DNA of 64,000 nucleotides. Origin: an uncultured Opitutales bacterium (GTDB lineage Bacteria > Verrucomicrobiota > Verrucomicrobiia > Opitutales > Intestinicryptomonadaceae). The notes under the pieces were generated by a model. The model had not been told where the DNA came from. It saw only the letters and a list, made by a program, of their open reading frames with translations, and did not search any database. The stretch is taken from NCBI GenBank assembly GCA_944389175.1, contig CALXLK010000002.1, positions 62,001 to 126,000 on the forward strand, given 5' to 3'. The position numbers and the translations under genes are program-made. This document shows positions 56,625 through 64,000 of this stretch, one piece after another (the first letter of the stretch is position 1; every line of letters starts with the position of its first letter).

Positions 56625-57629
56625 ATGAAGATGAAAAAATTTATAAACGGGCCCGAAAACATAGTATCGGAAGTGCTTGAGGGCATGGCTGCAGCCTACG
56701 CGGATAAAATAAGGCTGGATGGCAATGTCGTTGTAAGGGCCAGGCCCAAGGACAAATCAAAAGTGGCCGTGATTACGCTTGGGGGAGCCGGGCACGAGCC
56801 GGCGTTGAGCGGTTTTGTCGGGTACGGAATGCTCGATGCGAGCGTCGTAGGCGATGTGTTTGCCGCGCCTAATGCAATGGCGGTGATAGGGTGCCTGCGC
56901 AAGTTTAAGGACTATGCAGGAATTTTGCTTGTGGTGCTCAACCACGCAGGCGACGTAATGAGCGCGAACATGGCCATGAAGATGGCCCAACGCGAAAACA
57001 TAAACGTAAAAAGCGTTCTCGTTGCCGAAGACATAAGCGCGGGCAAAGGCGCGCCCAGGCAAGACCGCCGCGGTTTGGCCGGCTGTATTCCGCTTATAAA
57101 GGTTGCAGGAGCTGCGGCCGAAGAGGGCAAGAGTCTCGACGAAGTATTAAAAATAGCCGAAGATTTCAATTCCGAAATAGCTACGCTTGCAGTGGCGCTT
57201 ACCGGGTGCACGCATCCGCAGACGGGAGAGCCCATAGCCGAATTGGGTTCAGATGAAATGGAGATTGGAATGGGCCAGCACGGGGAGGGAGGCGGAGGCA
57301 AAAGCGCCGTTTTAAGCGCCGACGAGACCGCCGAAATAATGTTTGGAAAACTGGCTGATAGCCTTTCCGTTAAGGCGGGAGACAAGTTGTATATAATAAT
57401 AAACGGCACGGGCGCCTGCACCCCGATGGAAATGTCGATAGTTTTTAGGGCCTGCATTGGGCTCTGCAAAAACATCGGGGCAAATCTTGTGGGCGGGATA
57501 ATAGACGAACTGCTTACCGTGCAGGAGATGGCGGGTTTTCAAATGATTATGTGCAGGGTGGACGATTCCCAGTTGGCGCGTTTGCGCGCCAAAAGCGCCG
57601 CACCATATTGGACGAGCCTCGGAGAATAA
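56625..57629 (+). CDS. dhaK: Dihydroxyacetone kinase subunit DhaK
   Basis: A 334-residue substrate-binding subunit of dihydroxyacetone kinase. GGAGHEPALSGFVGYGMLDA matches the family's GGGSGHEP region. The substrate-linked His lies in EIGMGQHGEGGGGK (near 215). A start at 56631 (MKKF) is also possible. No DhaM gene is present, so phosphate may come from ATP rather than the PTS, despite the orphan PtsI near the window start. Related pairs act on erythrulose, so a C4 ketose is possible. Confidence 0.92.
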   Translation: MKMKKFINGPENIVSEVLEGMAAAYADKIRLDGNVVVRARPKDKSKVAVITLGGAGHEPALSGFVGYGMLDASVVGDVFAAPNAMAVIGCLRKFKDYAGILLVVLNHAGDVMSANMAMKMAQRENINVKSVLVAEDISAGKGAPRQDRRGLAGCIPLIKVAGAAAEEGKSLDEVLKIAEDFNSEIATLAVALTGCTHPQTGEPIAELGSDEMEIGMGQHGEGGGGKSAVLSADETAEIMFGKLADSLSVKAGDKLYIIINGTGACTPMEMSIVFRACIGLCKNIGANLVGGIIDELLTVQEMAGFQMIMCRVDDSQLARLRAKSAAPYWTSLGE

Positions 57630-57631
57630 GT

Positions 57632-58252
57632 ATGGATCTGACACTCGAAAAGCTAAAGGTCATGTTTGCAGCGGCGGCCTCGAGGATAGCCGGCGAGCGT
57701 GATTATCTATGTCGTCTCGACGCCGCCTGCGGCGACGGCGACCACGGCGTGGCCATCAACGGCGCCATAAGCGCTGCCAGCGCCGCGGTGCAGGACGCCG
57801 CCGACCTCAAAGAGGCGTTTCTCGATGCGGGCATGGCGGCGATGTCAAATTCCAATGGCTCCACGAGTTCCATATACGGCTCGTTTTTTATGGGAGTATC
57901 GGATTCGGTGGCCGCCGGGGCGCAGTCCATAAATGCCGGAGAAATGGCCGCCGCTTTCAAGGCCGGGTTAAAGTCTATGCGCGACGTCGTCAAAGGCGAC
58001 GTCGGAGACAAGACTTGTTTTGATTCTTTAATTCCCGCAGTGGAGGCCATGCAAAATTGCGGCGACGTCGCTCAGGCTCTGTCTGCGGCCGCCGAGGCCG
58101 CCGAGCGCGGGGCATCGGGCACTGTCAATCTTCGGGCAAAATTTGGGCGGGCTAGAAATTCGGCCGAGGCCTCTGTTGGGACGTTGGACCCCGGGGCGGT
58201 ATCAAACGCAATGATTTTTGCCGAATTTGCAAAATCATTTAAAGGAAAGTAA
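57632..58252 (+). CDS. dhaL: Dihydroxyacetone kinase subunit DhaL
   Basis: A 206-residue nucleotide-binding subunit. The start at 57632 (MDLTLEKL) is 2 nt after the dhaK stop; a frame extending to 57551 overlaps dhaK. The metal-nucleotide motif DAACGDGDHG (near 32) is intact, with NSNGSTSSIYGSFFMG and GDVGDKTCFDSLIPA later. Its conserved Asp set binds the Mg-ADP or Mg-ATP. It and DhaK form a unit with the aldolase next. Confidence 0.92.
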   Translation: MDLTLEKLKVMFAAAASRIAGERDYLCRLDAACGDGDHGVAINGAISAASAAVQDAADLKEAFLDAGMAAMSNSNGSTSSIYGSFFMGVSDSVAAGAQSINAGEMAAAFKAGLKSMRDVVKGDVGDKTCFDSLIPAVEAMQNCGDVAQALSAAAEAAERGASGTVNLRAKFGRARNSAEASVGTLDPGAVSNAMIFAEFAKSFKGK

Positions 58253-58274: not shown

Positions 58275-59150
58275 ATGGCAGACGCGGAAGGAAATATAGA
58301 GGCGAAAAATTACGCCGTCGATGTGGCGGCGAAAAACGGAGGTCCTAATGTAAAGGGAGCGGAAAATTTGGATTGGGGCGTGAAGGCGCGCTTATGGCGC
58401 ATATTCGACACCGCGAGCGGGAACACGCTCATGCTTGCCTTCGACCACGGCTACATAATGGGCCCTACAAGCGGGTTGGAGCGCATAGACTTAAGCATAG
58501 TCCCGCTGATAAAGTACGCCGACTGTATAATGTGCACTCGGGGTGTTTTAAGGTCGGTTATTCCGCCGTCGTGCAAAACGCCCGTGGCTTTGCGCTTTAG
58601 CGCGGGCTCTACGATACTTACCGAGCTCAACGACGAAACGCTCGTCGGGATAGAGGACGCAATTAAGCTCGACGCCGCCGCGATAGCGCCGATGGTTGCA
58701 ATCGGGTCTGAATTTGAGGCCAAAACGATTGCAAACTTGGCCCGCTGCGCCGATTTCACCGCCAAATACGGAATTCCGACGCTCGGGGTGACGGCCGTAG
58801 GCAAAAATCTGGCGCGTGATGCCCGTTATCTTGGGCTTGCCACGAGAGTGTGCGCCGAAAACGGAGCCACGTTTGTAAAGACATATTATTGCGACGAGGG
58901 TTTTGAGCGCGTCGTGGCGGGGTGTCCCGTTCCGATAGTTGTTGCGGGAGGGAAAAAACTTCCCGAGAATGAGGCTTTAGAGCTCGCGTACAAGGCTATT
59001 TCAAGCGGCGCGCGCGGTGTGGATATGGGCAGAAACATTTTTCAGTCGGAGAATCCCGAGGCTATGATTCAGGCGGTGGGGGCGGTCGTTCATCGGGGCA
59101 TGAAGCCCGCCGAAGCCTTTGAGCTTTACAGGGATTTGTCCGCAAGATAG
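58275..59150 (+). CDS. LsrF-like class I aldolase/thiolase
   Basis: A 291-residue protein I find very close to E. coli LsrF, which cleaves the phosphorylated AI-2 product with CoA to DHAP and acetyl-CoA. Shared stretches include LMLAFDHGYIMGPTSGLERID, MCTRGVLRSVIPP and ERVVAGCPVPIVVAGGKKLP; the Schiff-base Lys is kept in VKTYYC. The other lsr genes are absent. In this operon (dhaK-dhaL then this gene 22 nt on) a role as an aldolase making or splitting DHAP-type phosphates is likely. A GAAAGT then GGAAGA region precedes the ATG. Confidence 0.85.
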   Translation: MADAEGNIEAKNYAVDVAAKNGGPNVKGAENLDWGVKARLWRIFDTASGNTLMLAFDHGYIMGPTSGLERIDLSIVPLIKYADCIMCTRGVLRSVIPPSCKTPVALRFSAGSTILTELNDETLVGIEDAIKLDAAAIAPMVAIGSEFEAKTIANLARCADFTAKYGIPTLGVTAVGKNLARDARYLGLATRVCAENGATFVKTYYCDEGFERVVAGCPVPIVVAGGKKLPENEALELAYKAISSGARGVDMGRNIFQSENPEAMIQAVGAVVHRGMKPAEAFELYRDLSAR

Positions 59151-59192: not shown

Positions 59193-62100
59193 ATGAGAAA
59201 GAGTTTTTATATATGGGCTATCGCATTTTTTGCCCTTGTGGCGAGTTCTATCGCCCGGGAACAGGTATATCAAAAGGGTGAAACTTTCGCCGACACTATT
59301 ATTAAAACACGTCAGAACAACCTGAATTTTTTTAAGAGGGATTCTGCGGGCAATAACGGCATAACATTTGGGAAATGGTACGTTTCCCAGTATATGTCGC
59401 CGTGGCGCAAAAAGGCCATTAATTTTGCAAATCCCATAAACCACCCCGTAAGTCCCGACTATATTTACGGGCGCAAAAATCTTTGGATGAACTTTGACAT
59501 AGTCGACGGACAGCCTTTCCCGTTGCGGAAGGCAAATACTACAAAGCGCGGATCTTCGGCCTTTTTCATGTCGCGCGATATTTTTTCCGACAAAGATCGC
59601 GAATTCGTCTTTACCGTAGGTTCGACTTGCAAATTTACCCCGTTTCTAAATGGGAAAAAACTGGAGGCTCTCCCAGATATAAAGGCCGCCAAAGAGCTGC
59701 CCGTGCGCGTGTACAAATGCGCACTCAAGAAAGGGGAAAACAAGCTTACATTTGAAATGTTTTCCGTGGGCAGACTTGCGGAAGAGCCGTTTTATTTTGT
59801 CCCGCATCGCGACCCGGCAATAGAGGCCTTCAGCCGGCTGTTGAAAGACTATCCGATTAGGATGGCCACCCTATTGCGTAGTACCCGCTACTATTTTTCG
59901 GATTCGCCCGTTTTTGGCATTTACAGCGCCCTTACGTCTTCGGATTTCAACGAATCCGACGACATGATGCGTGCGCTCATTGAAAGCGCGCTTTTTTCGG
60001 CGGGGCGTTTCGAGGCCGAGTATAAAAGGATAAAAAATATTCCCGGAGAGGACGGCGCGCGCGCGCGGATAAAATTTGTCGGAGATATTATCGCTGCCAC
60101 CAGAGCCGAGAGCGCTCTCGGCTACGACATAAAGAATGTGCGCGCGGCCATGGAGGATATGAAAAAGACATTCCCCGAATACGACAAGGACGGCAAGCTT
60201 TTTGCGGAATTGTCCAAGTGGGAGTCGGAATGGAACGGGCTATACAAGGCGGTCTTTGACGCTGAGCAAAGGGAGCCGGCCATAATTCCCGAAAAGGCGC
60301 TTGAATTTAAGGAGTTTGCAAGGCATGCGCTGTTAAAAAATCCCCTTTTGCAAAAGAGCCGCAAATGGGTATGCATAAAGAGGCACAAAAATTCAAGCCG
60401 CATGGGGCTGCCGCAAAACTGGCAGGGGAACTCTACTTTAGCATGCAGGCCCGGCGCGGCAAACCACCTGCGCGACCGCCAAGTCTGCGACAGCTATAAG
60501 GACCAGCTTTTTGTTTTTGACCCGGTTTCGCCAAATTCGGGAAAACTTCTTTTCAAGCCGTCAAAAGACAATATCATATGCGATCTCGACATTTCTTTTG
60601 ACGGGTCAAAAATACTTTTTTCCACGCTCGACGACAAAATGTATTTTCGCCTCGACGAGCTCGACGTAAAGTCGGGCAAGACGCGCACGTTGACGCCGTC
60701 GTTTAACAAAGAGATAGACTATTACGACGGCATATATCTGCCGGACGGGCGCCTGATGTTTTGTTCGACGGCCTGCTGGGTGGGCGTGCCGTGCGTAGGC
60801 GGAATCGACAGCGTGGCAAATATCTATGTTATGGATCCCGACGCGGGGGACGAAAAGGCGGTAGATTCGACAATCAGGCAGCTGACTTTTGAGCAAGACG
60901 CCGATTGGATGCCCACTTTAATGGAAAACGGGCGCATAATGTACACGCGCTGGGAATACGTCGACAATTCCCACTACTTTTCGAGAATTCTCATGCACAT
61001 GAATCCCGACGGCACGGCGCAGTCGTCCCTGTATGGCTCCACCAGCTATTGGCCGAATTCGCTCTTTTACGCGCGCCAGATTCCCGGAGATCCTAACAAA
61101 TTTGTCGGCATAGTAAGCGGGCACCATGGCGTATCGCGCATCGGAGAGTTGCATTTGTTCGACATATCAAAGGGCACAAAAGAGGATCAGGGCAGAGTCC
61201 ACCAGTATCCCAGCTTCGGCAGAAAGTACGTGGCCGAAACAAAGGACGAGCTTGTCAGGGGGCGCTGGCCGCAGATAATACACCCGTATCCGCTCTCGCA
61301 AAACTACATAATAGCAAGCCTGCGCAGCGGCTCGCTTAATCAGTGGGATTTCGGGATATACCTAATCGATAAATTTGACAACATGACTTTGTTGCAAAGC
61401 TTTGCAGACTCGCACGCTTTCGAGCCCATGCCGCTTGCCGGGCGCCAAAAGCCCGCAGAGATAGCCGACAAGACAAATCCCGACCTCGATTACGGATACG
61501 TTTTCCTCAACGATATATACCAAGGGGAAGGGCTAAAGGGCGTGCCCCGCGGCACGGTGAAGGCCTTGAGAATACTCGAATACCATTACGCATACAGGTC
61601 TATGGGGGCCCACAACGTCATAGCAAACGAAGGCTCGTGGGACGTCAAGCGCATACACGGCACCGTGCCTGTGGCCGAAGACGGCTCAGCTCTTTTTAAG
61701 GTGCCTGCGAACCGCCCGATGGCGCTTCAGCCTTTGGACAAGGACGGCAAGGCGCTGGCGTTAATGCGCAGTTGGTTTACGGTAATGCCTGGTGAAGTTC
61801 AAAGCTGCGTGGGATGCCACGAAGGGCAGGGCATGTCGCCCACCTCGAAGCCTGCGTTGGCCTCGCGCTCCAGACCGTCCCAAATAAAGCCGTTCATAGC
61901 GGGTGTCAGGGGCTATTCTTTCATTAGGGACGTTCAGCCCGTTTTGGACAAGTATTGTGCCGGCTGCCACGACGGTTCAAATCAGAGGCTGCCAAACTTC
62001 AAACGCGGCGTTGGCGGAGATTCCGGTTTCCCGAGATCGTATTTGGATCTGGCCAGATACGTTCGGCGTTCGGGGCCGGAATGCAACCAAAATATGCTTT

Positions 62101-63422
62101 CTCCATTGGAATTTAACGCCGACACGAGCGAGTTGATGCAGATTCTCAAGAAGGGGCACAAGGGGGTAAAGCTCGACGACGAGTCGATGAAAATTCTCAT
62201 CACGTGGATTGACCTCAATGTCCCCTGCTACGGGACTTGGAGCGAGGTAAAAGGCGGCATAAAATACGGCGGCGATAAAATGCGCATGAAATACCTCGCC
62301 AAATACGCCAACCGCCACGAAGACCAGAACGCCATTACATACGACGGCGGCGTCCAGAAATTTGTGCGTCCGGCCCAGCCGAAGATGCATGCGGGCAAGA
62401 ATCTAAAAGTTGACGGGTTCCCGTTCGATTCGCTGGCCGCCGCCAAGATGATAGATGCGGCTTCAAAAGGCAATGCCGGTTTTTTGTCGCGGCTGTTTGG
62501 CGGGAAGCCGCTTCCCAAGGAGCTTGAAGCTGACATAGATGGGGAGAAAATTCGTTTTGTTCTCGTGCCTGCGGGCAGCTATGTGATGGGCAGCAATACG
62601 GGCTATTACGACGAGGGGCCGGCGGCTATCGTGAAAGTTGCCTCGCCTTTTTATATGAGCCGCTGCGAAGTTTCCAACGCCCAGTATGCAAAGTTTGACT
62701 CCCGCCATAACTCGGGCTACCAGGACAGGCAGTGGAAAGACCATGTCGACCGCGGCTATCCGGCAAATCTTCCAAATCAGCCGGTCGTGCGCGTCAGCTG
62801 GAACGAGGCCGTAGATTATTGCGCATGGCTTTCAAAGAAGCTCGGCGTAGGGGTGGGGCTGCCCAGCCAAAAGCAGTGGGAGTGGGCAGCCCGCGCAGGC
62901 ACGGCCTCCGATTTCTGGTTCGGAAAATCCAACTTTAATTACGGTAACTGCGAGAACTTGGCCGACTTTACAATAAGGGATCTCTCCGTCGACGGCGTCG
63001 ACCCGCAGCCGAGGGTGGACGATAGCCCGCTTAACGACTACACTCCGCACGACGATTTTGCCTACGACGGTTCTCTTACGGCCGCCGAAGTAGGTTCTTA
63101 CAAACCCAACGCATTCGGATTGTGCGACATGCTCGGCAACGTCAGCGAGTGGACTTCCGACGATTATACTCAGACGCTTTTCGGCAAAAAGGTTGAGGAT
63201 AAAAAGACCGTCCGCGGCGGTTCGTGGCGCGACCGCGCCAAACGAGCGCGCGTGACTTTCAGGCGCGACTACCACCCCTGGCAAAAGGTTTACAACGTGG
63301 GCGTAAGGCTCGTCATAAACGACGCCGCCGCGGCCGCCAAACGCCTAAAAGCGGTTCCCCCGTCCGAGCCCGCGCCCCTGCGGAACACCAAGATTCCATT
63401 GGACAACATTCCTCATAATTAA
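59193..63422 (+). CDS. Giant exported protein: beta-propeller-like region, two CxxCH haem motifs, FGE-sulfatase-like domain
   Basis: A 1409-residue protein. ATG 59193 (MRKSFYIWAI) has GGAGGAG 7 nt before it, and a signal peptide. Residues about 25-420 look like a beta-sandwich plus helical region; about 420-860 a TolB/hydrazine-synthase-alpha-like propeller (LDISFDGSKILFST, YYDGIYLPDGRLMFCSTAC). Two CxxCH motifs, CVGCH at 872 and CAGCH at 922, indicate c-type haems. Residues about 1115-1380 are an FGE/SUMF1-like domain (VLVPAGSYVMGSNTGYYDEG, MLGNVSEWTSDD, VRGGSWRDR) but lack the two active Cys of true formylglycine enzymes. Similar fusions occur in Planctomycetes; function is unproven. Confidence 0.8.
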   Translation: MRKSFYIWAIAFFALVASSIAREQVYQKGETFADTIIKTRQNNLNFFKRDSAGNNGITFGKWYVSQYMSPWRKKAINFANPINHPVSPDYIYGRKNLWMNFDIVDGQPFPLRKANTTKRGSSAFFMSRDIFSDKDREFVFTVGSTCKFTPFLNGKKLEALPDIKAAKELPVRVYKCALKKGENKLTFEMFSVGRLAEEPFYFVPHRDPAIEAFSRLLKDYPIRMATLLRSTRYYFSDSPVFGIYSALTSSDFNESDDMMRALIESALFSAGRFEAEYKRIKNIPGEDGARARIKFVGDIIAATRAESALGYDIKNVRAAMEDMKKTFPEYDKDGKLFAELSKWESEWNGLYKAVFDAEQREPAIIPEKALEFKEFARHALLKNPLLQKSRKWVCIKRHKNSSRMGLPQNWQGNSTLACRPGAANHLRDRQVCDSYKDQLFVFDPVSPNSGKLLFKPSKDNIICDLDISFDGSKILFSTLDDKMYFRLDELDVKSGKTRTLTPSFNKEIDYYDGIYLPDGRLMFCSTACWVGVPCVGGIDSVANIYVMDPDAGDEKAVDSTIRQLTFEQDADWMPTLMENGRIMYTRWEYVDNSHYFSRILMHMNPDGTAQSSLYGSTSYWPNSLFYARQIPGDPNKFVGIVSGHHGVSRIGELHLFDISKGTKEDQGRVHQYPSFGRKYVAETKDELVRGRWPQIIHPYPLSQNYIIASLRSGSLNQWDFGIYLIDKFDNMTLLQSFADSHAFEPMPLAGRQKPAEIADKTNPDLDYGYVFLNDIYQGEGLKGVPRGTVKALRILEYHYAYRSMGAHNVIANEGSWDVKRIHGTVPVAEDGSALFKVPANRPMALQPLDKDGKALALMRSWFTVMPGEVQSCVGCHEGQGMSPTSKPALASRSRPSQIKPFIAGVRGYSFIRDVQPVLDKYCAGCHDGSNQRLPNFKRGVGGDSGFPRSYLDLARYVRRSGPECNQNMLSPLEFNADTSELMQILKKGHKGVKLDDESMKILITWIDLNVPCYGTWSEVKGGIKYGGDKMRMKYLAKYANRHEDQNAITYDGGVQKFVRPAQPKMHAGKNLKVDGFPFDSLAAAKMIDAASKGNAGFLSRLFGGKPLPKELEADIDGEKIRFVLVPAGSYVMGSNTGYYDEGPAAIVKVASPFYMSRCEVSNAQYAKFDSRHNSGYQDRQWKDHVDRGYPANLPNQPVVRVSWNEAVDYCAWLSKKLGVGVGLPSQKQWEWAARAGTASDFWFGKSNFNYGNCENLADFTIRDLSVDGVDPQPRVDDSPLNDYTPHDDFAYDGSLTAAEVGSYKPNAFGLCDMLGNVSEWTSDDYTQTLFGKKVEDKKTVRGGSWRDRAKRARVTFRRDYHPWQKVYNVGVRLVINDAAAAAKRLKAVPPSEPAPLRNTKIPLDNIPHN

Positions 63423-63447: not shown

Positions 63448-64000
63448 ATGAGAAAAATACTTGCAATATTAGCCGCCGTGTCCCTGCTTTTTTGCGGTTG
63501 CGCGACATGTCAGAAAGACCCGGCACCATCTTCTAATCAACAAAAATTGACAAAAAATATGTTCTACAAAAACGGAAAGTTTGATAGGGAGGCTGCAAAG
63601 AAAGCCTACTTTGAAATGATGGAAAATCTCGGGTACCCCATAAGCGAGAATCTTCGCCAAAACATGTGGGTTACCGATTTTGAGCTGGGCGATTTCCCGA
63701 ACGTGGGAATGGGGGGGATTTTTTGGGCCCATGAAAACGTTAACGGTGTATTCGGCCACGAGATATTTCTGCTGCCAAACCAGATATTGATTGAGCACCG
63801 CCATGTCGCGGGCAACGGTCTTCCCGCGAAAAACGAATGCTGGCAGGCGCGCGCAGGCAGCGCATATTGCTTCGGAGAGAAGGGTGAGGACGCCTCAAAG
63901 TATCCGCAAGTCAAGGTTCCCGAAAGCCAGAAAAATTTCGTAACCGTGCACAAGGTTACACCGATAGATGCAAAGAGGGGCAACATAGCCTGGCTTAGCC
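63448..64000 (+). CDS. D-lyxose isomerase-like cupin lipoprotein (partial)
   Basis: The first 184 codons of a gene that runs off the window. MRKILAILAAVSLLFCGC has a lipobox near residue 18, so this sugar isomerase-like protein is probably anchored outside the inner membrane. The body has NLGYPISENLRQNMWVTDF, GGIFWAHENVNGVFGHEIFL and the cupin metal site LIEHRHVAG with a later Glu in ECWQARAG, as in D-lyxose/mannose isomerases. AAGGAAATAA precedes the ATG. It follows the haem/FGE-like protein by 25 nt. Confidence 0.8.
   Translation, partial: MRKILAILAAVSLLFCGCATCQKDPAPSSNQQKLTKNMFYKNGKFDREAAKKAYFEMMENLGYPISENLRQNMWVTDFELGDFPNVGMGGIFWAHENVNGVFGHEIFLLPNQILIEHRHVAGNGLPAKNECWQARAGSAYCFGEKGEDASKYPQVKVPESQKNFVTVHKVTPIDAKRGNIAWLS

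Follow-up and report, generated by a model that had tools for sequence, protein, structure and literature searches.

A hydrazine synthase alpha homologue with an FGE-like end, probably half of a haem enzyme complex, in an uncultured Opitutales bacterium

What an exported protein with two putative c-type haem sites does in a sugar operon is the question raised by a 1409-residue open reading frame (ORF) in a stretch of 64,000 nucleotides (the window, which here means the whole stretch analysed) from an uncultured Opitutales bacterium (contig CALXLK010000002.1, positions 62,001 to 126,000). Its product, called alpha-FGE below, had been described in an original prediction as a fusion of a region resembling the alpha subunit of hydrazine synthase (HZS) with an FGE/SUMF1-like end, suggested to be an electron-transfer enzyme with sugar oxidation as a candidate role. 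HZS is the key enzyme of anammox bacteria and, to our knowledge, was long held to have no relatives. Homologues of HZS alpha and of a fused beta-gamma outside anammox, forming clades I-IV and of function not known, were described in December 2025 by Hagglund et al., who conclude that key HZS residues are lost in the non-anammox homologues (PMC12758564). Because a partner gene and genes for haem attachment are present elsewhere in the genome, alpha-FGE is probably one half of a widespread haem enzyme complex with a link to sugar use and not a lone sugar oxidase. This answer is carried by homology, the partner gene, the maturation genes, co-occurrence, adjacency or fusion in relatives, and joint loss. 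Loci and genomes of the comparison are referred to by L and G numbers.

Homology of alpha-FGE to hydrazine synthase alpha

The ORF opens with an ATG preceded by a GGAGG site and encodes a signal peptide, in agreement with the predicted export (coordinates of all features are given in Table 1). The two CXXCH motifs, read as c-type haem sites, are not explained by chance (0.005 expected for the composition of alpha-FGE, and two motifs in 0 of 20,000 shuffles), and their positions are invariant among 67 aligned alphas, namely 58/58 FGE-type relatives and 9/9 relatives without FGE; full-length identity of the alpha-FGE homologues is 48-66%. By its signal peptide, its CXXCH motifs and the maturation genes of the genome, the protein qualifies as a c-type cytochrome with predicted haem.

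The region before the FGE domain is a full-length HZS alpha homologue, comprising propeller, middle domain and second-haem region. Besides the HZS_alpha profile search, which detected the predicted relationship, a profile of 15 diverse alphas matched 5c2v_A (HZS alpha, HzsA, of Kuenenia stuttgartiensis) with E 1.4e-34 in four blocks (chain positions 56-136, 164-396, 450-565 and 638-765) that take in the propeller, middle and second haem domains. With AlphaFold2 models of residues 23-1075 and 210-1409 (mean predicted local distance difference test scores of 89 and 90), 5c2v_A was ranked first by Foldseek (E 7e-29, template modelling (TM) score 0.59-0.60 by target length), followed by TolB-like propellers. 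The NCBIfam model hydrazine_alpha gave alpha-FGE 48.8 bits, below its equivalog cut-off of 800 bits. The N-terminal part (residues ~23-390) is shortened or unlike in other clades.

Residues of HZS were located on the alignment following the published ligands (PMC12758564, PMC12607021). Tyr591, the ligand of haem alpha-I, aligns with Gly880 (H+4), in a column where the family mostly has N or G, and the zinc ligand Cys303 aligns with Thr617, most relatives having N or T; Cys303 is also missing in Scalinduaceae (PMC12758564). Because both residues are unmatched, hydrazine synthesis as in anammox HZS was rejected, and on the alignment of its defining residues alpha-FGE is an HzsA homologue yet no hydrazine synthase alpha. 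Four other conserved residues, Cys534, His594, His644 and His645, are placed by the predicted strand order in loops of three successive propeller blades and may face the haem I pocket. The candidate distal ligand of the second haem, His989, is offset by one column in the ungapped alignment from His772, the distal ligand of haem alpha-II in HZS alpha.

The FGE-like end was likewise recovered by the profile search proposed for it. It had been called cysteine-free, which holds for the catalytic pair only: cysteines are present at C1158, C1210, C1253 and C1311, the RGGSW motif is retained, and the catalytic columns are occupied by D1347 and A1352, with Cys found there in no aligned relative. Because of this replacement, formylglycine generation was ruled out, as had been expected. 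PvdO (5hha) was the closest Foldseek match of this part (TM 0.75), FGE coming next, and no cut-off was reached when it was scored against the EgtB, SenA and PvdO equivalog models. The FGE-type alphas form a single clade with 100% support, in which the sole row without FGE ends at a contig edge; the tree thus suggests that the fusion probably arose once and then spread through many families.

The beta-gamma partner and haem maturation

The host genome (2.29 Mb in 32 contigs, 93% complete), whose nearest named relatives are mostly Opitutales metagenome-assembled genomes, several of them from animal guts (e.g. sheep rumen, yak), encodes on another contig one fused beta-gamma homologue with the motifs CITCH and CSYCH (G000:C10:18939-20747), 49% identical to that of L017. 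In the Opitutales relatives L017 and L020, the alpha-FGE gene adjoins one whose product, 609-619 aa long, combines a propeller with two CXXCH motifs; the single chain from L017 matches both HZS gamma (E 6e-18) and HZS beta (E 1.4e-14), and Pfam matches of beta-gamma are CCP_MauG and RoxA-like. An in-frame TAG interrupts the alpha-FGE gene beside beta-gamma at L017:3219-5777 (L041). The Cys165 of HZS gamma sits in an insertion that the beta-gamma homologue does not have, the position of His144 is mostly Ile or Trp, and the Trp of CCP/MauG and of the published clade I-III homologues stands at its column in only 13/72 aligned beta-gamma rows, so that these residues justify assuming neither nitric oxide (NO) reduction nor the chemistry of classical peroxidases at the gamma-like site.

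Cytochrome maturation genes, to which the prediction of haem had been tied, are present in the host genome as a system II pair (ResB, E 2e-22; CcsA, E 5e-16). At this locus (L026:4976-7539) ResB is short, CcsA has a long N-terminal extension, and the next gene is GH10 xylanase-like.

Among ~60 beta-gamma loci from the phylum, ~20 adjoin an FGE-type alpha and ~8 another alpha. Adjacent pairs of alpha-FGE and beta-gamma were found at L017, L020, L074, L078, L088, L155, L157, L163, L168, L171, L173, L174, L176, L178, L179, L190 and L193-L196. Within one genus of the same class, with genomes of 2.7-3.5 Mb, the pair is adjacent in 6/6 loci examined (L088, L190, L193-L196) and both families occur in 13/13 sampled species; in another genus of the family of the host, beta-gamma adjoins an FGE-type alpha. 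At L197:1997-11332 (G119:C36), alpha, FGE and beta-gamma are joined in one 3111-aa ORF with four CXXCH motifs. This ORF also holds autotransporter-like repeats and PKD domains. Judged by eye, beta-gamma in G007 (L239:8307-11894) has as neighbours an IclR-like regulator and genes that may encode a TRAP-type transporter.

A survey of 289 genomes over the Verrucomicrobiota phylum, in which at most 16 alphas and at most 4 beta-gamma candidates were scored per genome, gave 57 genomes with both families, 4 with alpha only, 4 with beta-gamma only and 224 with neither. No other single observation points as strongly to joint action of alpha, beta-gamma and the haem system as a combined loss in G009. 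This genome, which belongs to the same genus and consists of one contig, has neither HZS_alpha nor beta-gamma, and CcsA and the neighbouring lipoprotein are missing from it as well. Most genomes have one or two beta-gamma genes, yet up to 16 or more alphas; four alphas and one beta-gamma are present in the host genome, and one beta-gamma match was found in 19/27 sampled genomes with both families and at least 4 alphas. Because few beta-gamma genes are set against many alphas, the alphas probably confer specificity as subunits that can replace one another on a common beta-gamma. The three further HZS-alpha-like genes of the host genome are located at L023:4688-7954, L024:5305-8619 and L025:8999-11680; two of them have a third CXXCH, one has a CBM-like domain and lies by GH42-like genes, and one adjoins an IclR regulator and an SGL/NHL-type lipoprotein.

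Sugar context and competing explanations

The neighbours of alpha-FGE are those originally claimed, an LsrF-like aldolase before it and a D-lyxose-isomerase-like lipoprotein after it, and the comparison of synteny revealed that the gene order of Table 1, from dhaK to the lipoprotein, is conserved in the genus, several genomes having an IclR regulator close by. The lipoprotein matches 7nzo (E 1.7e-11) and 2y0o (E 6e-10); because the EHRH metal motif is aligned, an extracytoplasmic sugar isomerase is plausible. Its relatives are cytoplasmic D-lyxose/D-mannose isomerases, and it would be uncommon for a sugar isomerase to be located outside the cytoplasm. The more distant relatives L012 and L018 have kept, of the operon, the lipoprotein alone. 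No report of LsrF with a dihydroxyacetone kinase was found in the open-access literature.

Table 1. Features of the alpha-FGE locus, in coordinates of the window
Feature	Coordinates	Strand	Evidence
dhaK, dihydroxyacetone-kinase K-type subunit	56625..57629	+	domain and family profile searches
dhaL, dihydroxyacetone-kinase L-type subunit	57629..58252	+	domain and family profile searches
LsrF-like class I aldolase, 42 bases upstream of alpha-FGE	58275..59150	+	profile match; conserved neighbour
alpha-FGE gene, 1409 aa, exported HZS-alpha-like dihaem protein (predicted) with C-terminal FGE-like domain	59193..63422	+	ORF, Pfam, homologues
Signal peptide MRKSFYIWAIAFFALVASSIA, residues 1-21	59193..59255	+	sequence itself
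N-terminal beta-sandwich-like and helical part, residues ~23-390, lineage-specific	59259..60362	+	AlphaFold2 secondary structure
Beta-propeller, residues ~392-785	60366..61547	+	model; Foldseek match to HZS alpha and TolB
Cys534	60792..60794	+	found in 58/58 FGE-type alphas and in 9/9 others; not present in HZS alpha of anammox bacteria
His594	60972..60974	+	invariant in 58/58 FGE-type alphas
His644-His645	61122..61127	+	both in 58/58 FGE-type alphas; His645 also in 8/9 other alphas
HZS_alpha middle domain, residues 787-877	61551..61823	+	Pfam PF18582, E 1.4e-32
CVGCH, starting at residue 872, corresponding to haem alpha-I site	61806..61820	+	sequence, alignment
CAGCH, starting at residue 922, corresponding to haem alpha-II site	61956..61970	+	sequence, alignment
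His989, candidate distal ligand of second haem	62157..62159	+	conserved in 58/58 FGE-type and 8/9 other alphas
FGE/SUMF1-like domain, residues 1122-1374, catalytic cysteines replaced (D1347, A1352)	62556..63314	+	Pfam PF03781, E 1.7e-46
D-lyxose/D-mannose-isomerase-like lipoprotein, running past window end	63448..64000	+	complete in L022:149-817

The explanation we favour, and hold to be somewhat better than an even chance, is that alpha-FGE serves as the alpha-like subunit in a periplasmic tetrahaem complex homologous to HZS, in which FGE is a non-catalytic binding module and which, in this genus, is linked to a sugar operon. Alpha and beta-gamma would, like the HZS subunits, form a tetrahaem alpha-beta-gamma unit. 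Redox chemistry on a small molecule would take place at the gamma-like dihaem site, from which an intermediate or electrons would reach the haem-I pocket of alpha; this pocket may be lined by the lineage-specific set Cys534/His594/His644/His645 instead of the Tyr591/Cys303/zinc of HZS, and the FGE-like domain may bind substrate or partner as a non-catalytic module. The substrate in this genus would probably be carbohydrate-derived, because the gene shares its operon with those of a ketose kinase, of an LsrF-like aldolase and of a lipoprotein that is exported and resembles sugar isomerases; sugar oxidation itself, which rests on the neighbours, is a guess. Neither cytochrome bd oxidase nor NrfA was found in the 93%-complete host genome, the missing bd oxidase being consistent with a strict anaerobe. 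Oxygen or nitrite respiration was accordingly discarded as electron sink, other sinks not having been searched.

Several observations weigh against this explanation. The sugar operon is restricted to the genus and FGE-type alphas elsewhere have varied neighbours; FGE-type alpha and beta-gamma are unlinked in the host genome and in most of its genus; and G001, of the same family, has beta-gamma and the lipoprotein and no FGE-type alpha. The co-occurrence in the survey (Fisher p 2e-50) was evaluated with a statistic that ignores shared ancestry, and the beta-gamma counts rest on at most 4 scored candidates per genome. In G006 and G008, moreover, beta-gamma is in operon with another alpha that has three CXXCH motifs and no FGE, and a beta-gamma serving the FGE-type alpha alone was ruled out on the basis of these two genomes. 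In both, the beta-gamma gene overlaps that of the FGE-less alpha (L237:6105-11172, L238:6604-11659), and its neighbourhood resembles that of the lone host beta-gamma (L150).

Outside the family, genes near alphas include fucosidases (GH29/GH95), sulfatases, Gfo/Idh/MocA oxidoreductases, AraA and iron alcohol dehydrogenases, and also unrelated genes. A single pathway was not obtained from this neighbour survey (49 and 47 proteins), which gave a loose carbohydrate theme only and had no background control. These glycan genes, the genus-conserved operon and the paralogue with a CBM-like domain would suit a stand-alone periplasmic sugar or polyol dehydrogenase, in which the propeller binds the sugar, the haems remove electrons and the FGE domain binds a glycan. 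Such an enzyme is nevertheless rather unlikely: matches to PQQ- (pyrroloquinoline quinone), flavin- or molybdenum-dependent sugar dehydrogenases were found neither in sequence nor in fold, where HZS alpha and then TolB-like propellers are best, and no dehydrogenase cofactor site was found in alpha-FGE. The lone sugar oxidase originally proposed is unsupported because the family almost always co-occurs with the dihaem beta-gamma homologue, which it also adjoins or is fused to.

Alpha-FGE might instead be non-catalytic, as an electron carrier or a sensor or binding protein whose haems relay electrons between beta-gamma and other redox partners, or which tethers the complex to its substrate through FGE; FGE relatives such as GldK/PorK do have structural roles. 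Moreover, no function has been assigned to haem alpha-II of HZS, which has bis-His ligation (PMC12607021), and His989 is invariant here. We regard this explanation as unlikely, since the invariance of Cys534/His594/His644/His645 in 58/58 relatives goes beyond the needs of a carrier.

Homology to all three HZS subunits would be in keeping with a nitrogen-oxide enzyme chemically near HZS (e.g. for turnover or detoxification of NO or hydroxylamine), which is improbable given the replacement of Tyr591 and Cys303 in alpha and of His144 in beta-gamma, the missing Cys165 insertion, the failure to find NrfA in the genome, the gut lineage and the position of the gene in a sugar operon. A peroxide-using complex, in which a CCP/MauG-like gamma would oxidise with H2O2 what alpha holds, either a substrate or a residue that may be located on FGE, has on its side the CCP_MauG and RoxA-like matches of beta-gamma and the fact that partner proteins are modified by MauG-type enzymes, and is the least probable of all in view of the rarity of the CCP-type Trp and of a genome in which no bd oxidase was found, consistent with a strict anaerobe.

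Comparison with known systems

The proposed FGE-fused complex may, as a possibility offered tentatively, represent a new class of periplasmic haem enzymes in Verrucomicrobiota, in which a shared HZS-beta-gamma-like dihaem module would be combined with many interchangeable alphas that differ in binding domain (FGE-like, CBM-like or other) and in gene cluster, as a redox arm of carbohydrate use, hydrazine synthase being one specialised descendant. A large FGE-fused HZS-like branch is hereby placed in Verrucomicrobiota, including gut lineages, and is provided with a partner gene, a dependency on haem maturation, an operon and a natural knock-out (G009). The role of HZS-like complexes outside anammox becomes directly testable, which bears on the origin of hydrazine chemistry.

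With HzsA (5c2v_A), alpha-FGE has in common the propeller, the CXXCH middle domain and the second CXXCH domain, and differs from it by Cys534/His645, the extra N-terminal part, the FGE domain and the sugar-operon context. With the FGE/SUMF1 superfamily (PvdO being closest, GldK/PorK also belonging to it) it shares the fold, whereas Asp and Ala stand in place of the catalytic cysteines. The beta-gamma partner shares two CXXCH motifs and the CCP_MauG domain with CCP/MauG dihaem enzymes, but carries a fused propeller like that of HZS beta and mostly has no CCP-type Trp.

Neither an FGE-fused HZS clade nor the pattern of many alphas to one beta-gamma was found reported in the open-access literature (subscription papers and preprints lay outside the search). 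The main text of the study that defined clades I-IV deals with Planctomycetota, Desulfobacterota and few others, Opitutus terrae being the sole verrucomicrobial name found, and contains none of the terms 'formylglycine', 'SUMF1' and 'Verrucomicrob' (PMC12758564). Those clades and the present system have in common an alpha-like gene near a fused beta-gamma and key residues that are not conserved, and clade I has two alpha haems (PMC12758564), as predicted for alpha-FGE. What distinguishes the present system from those clades is the large FGE-fused clade and the single alpha-FGE-beta-gamma chain.

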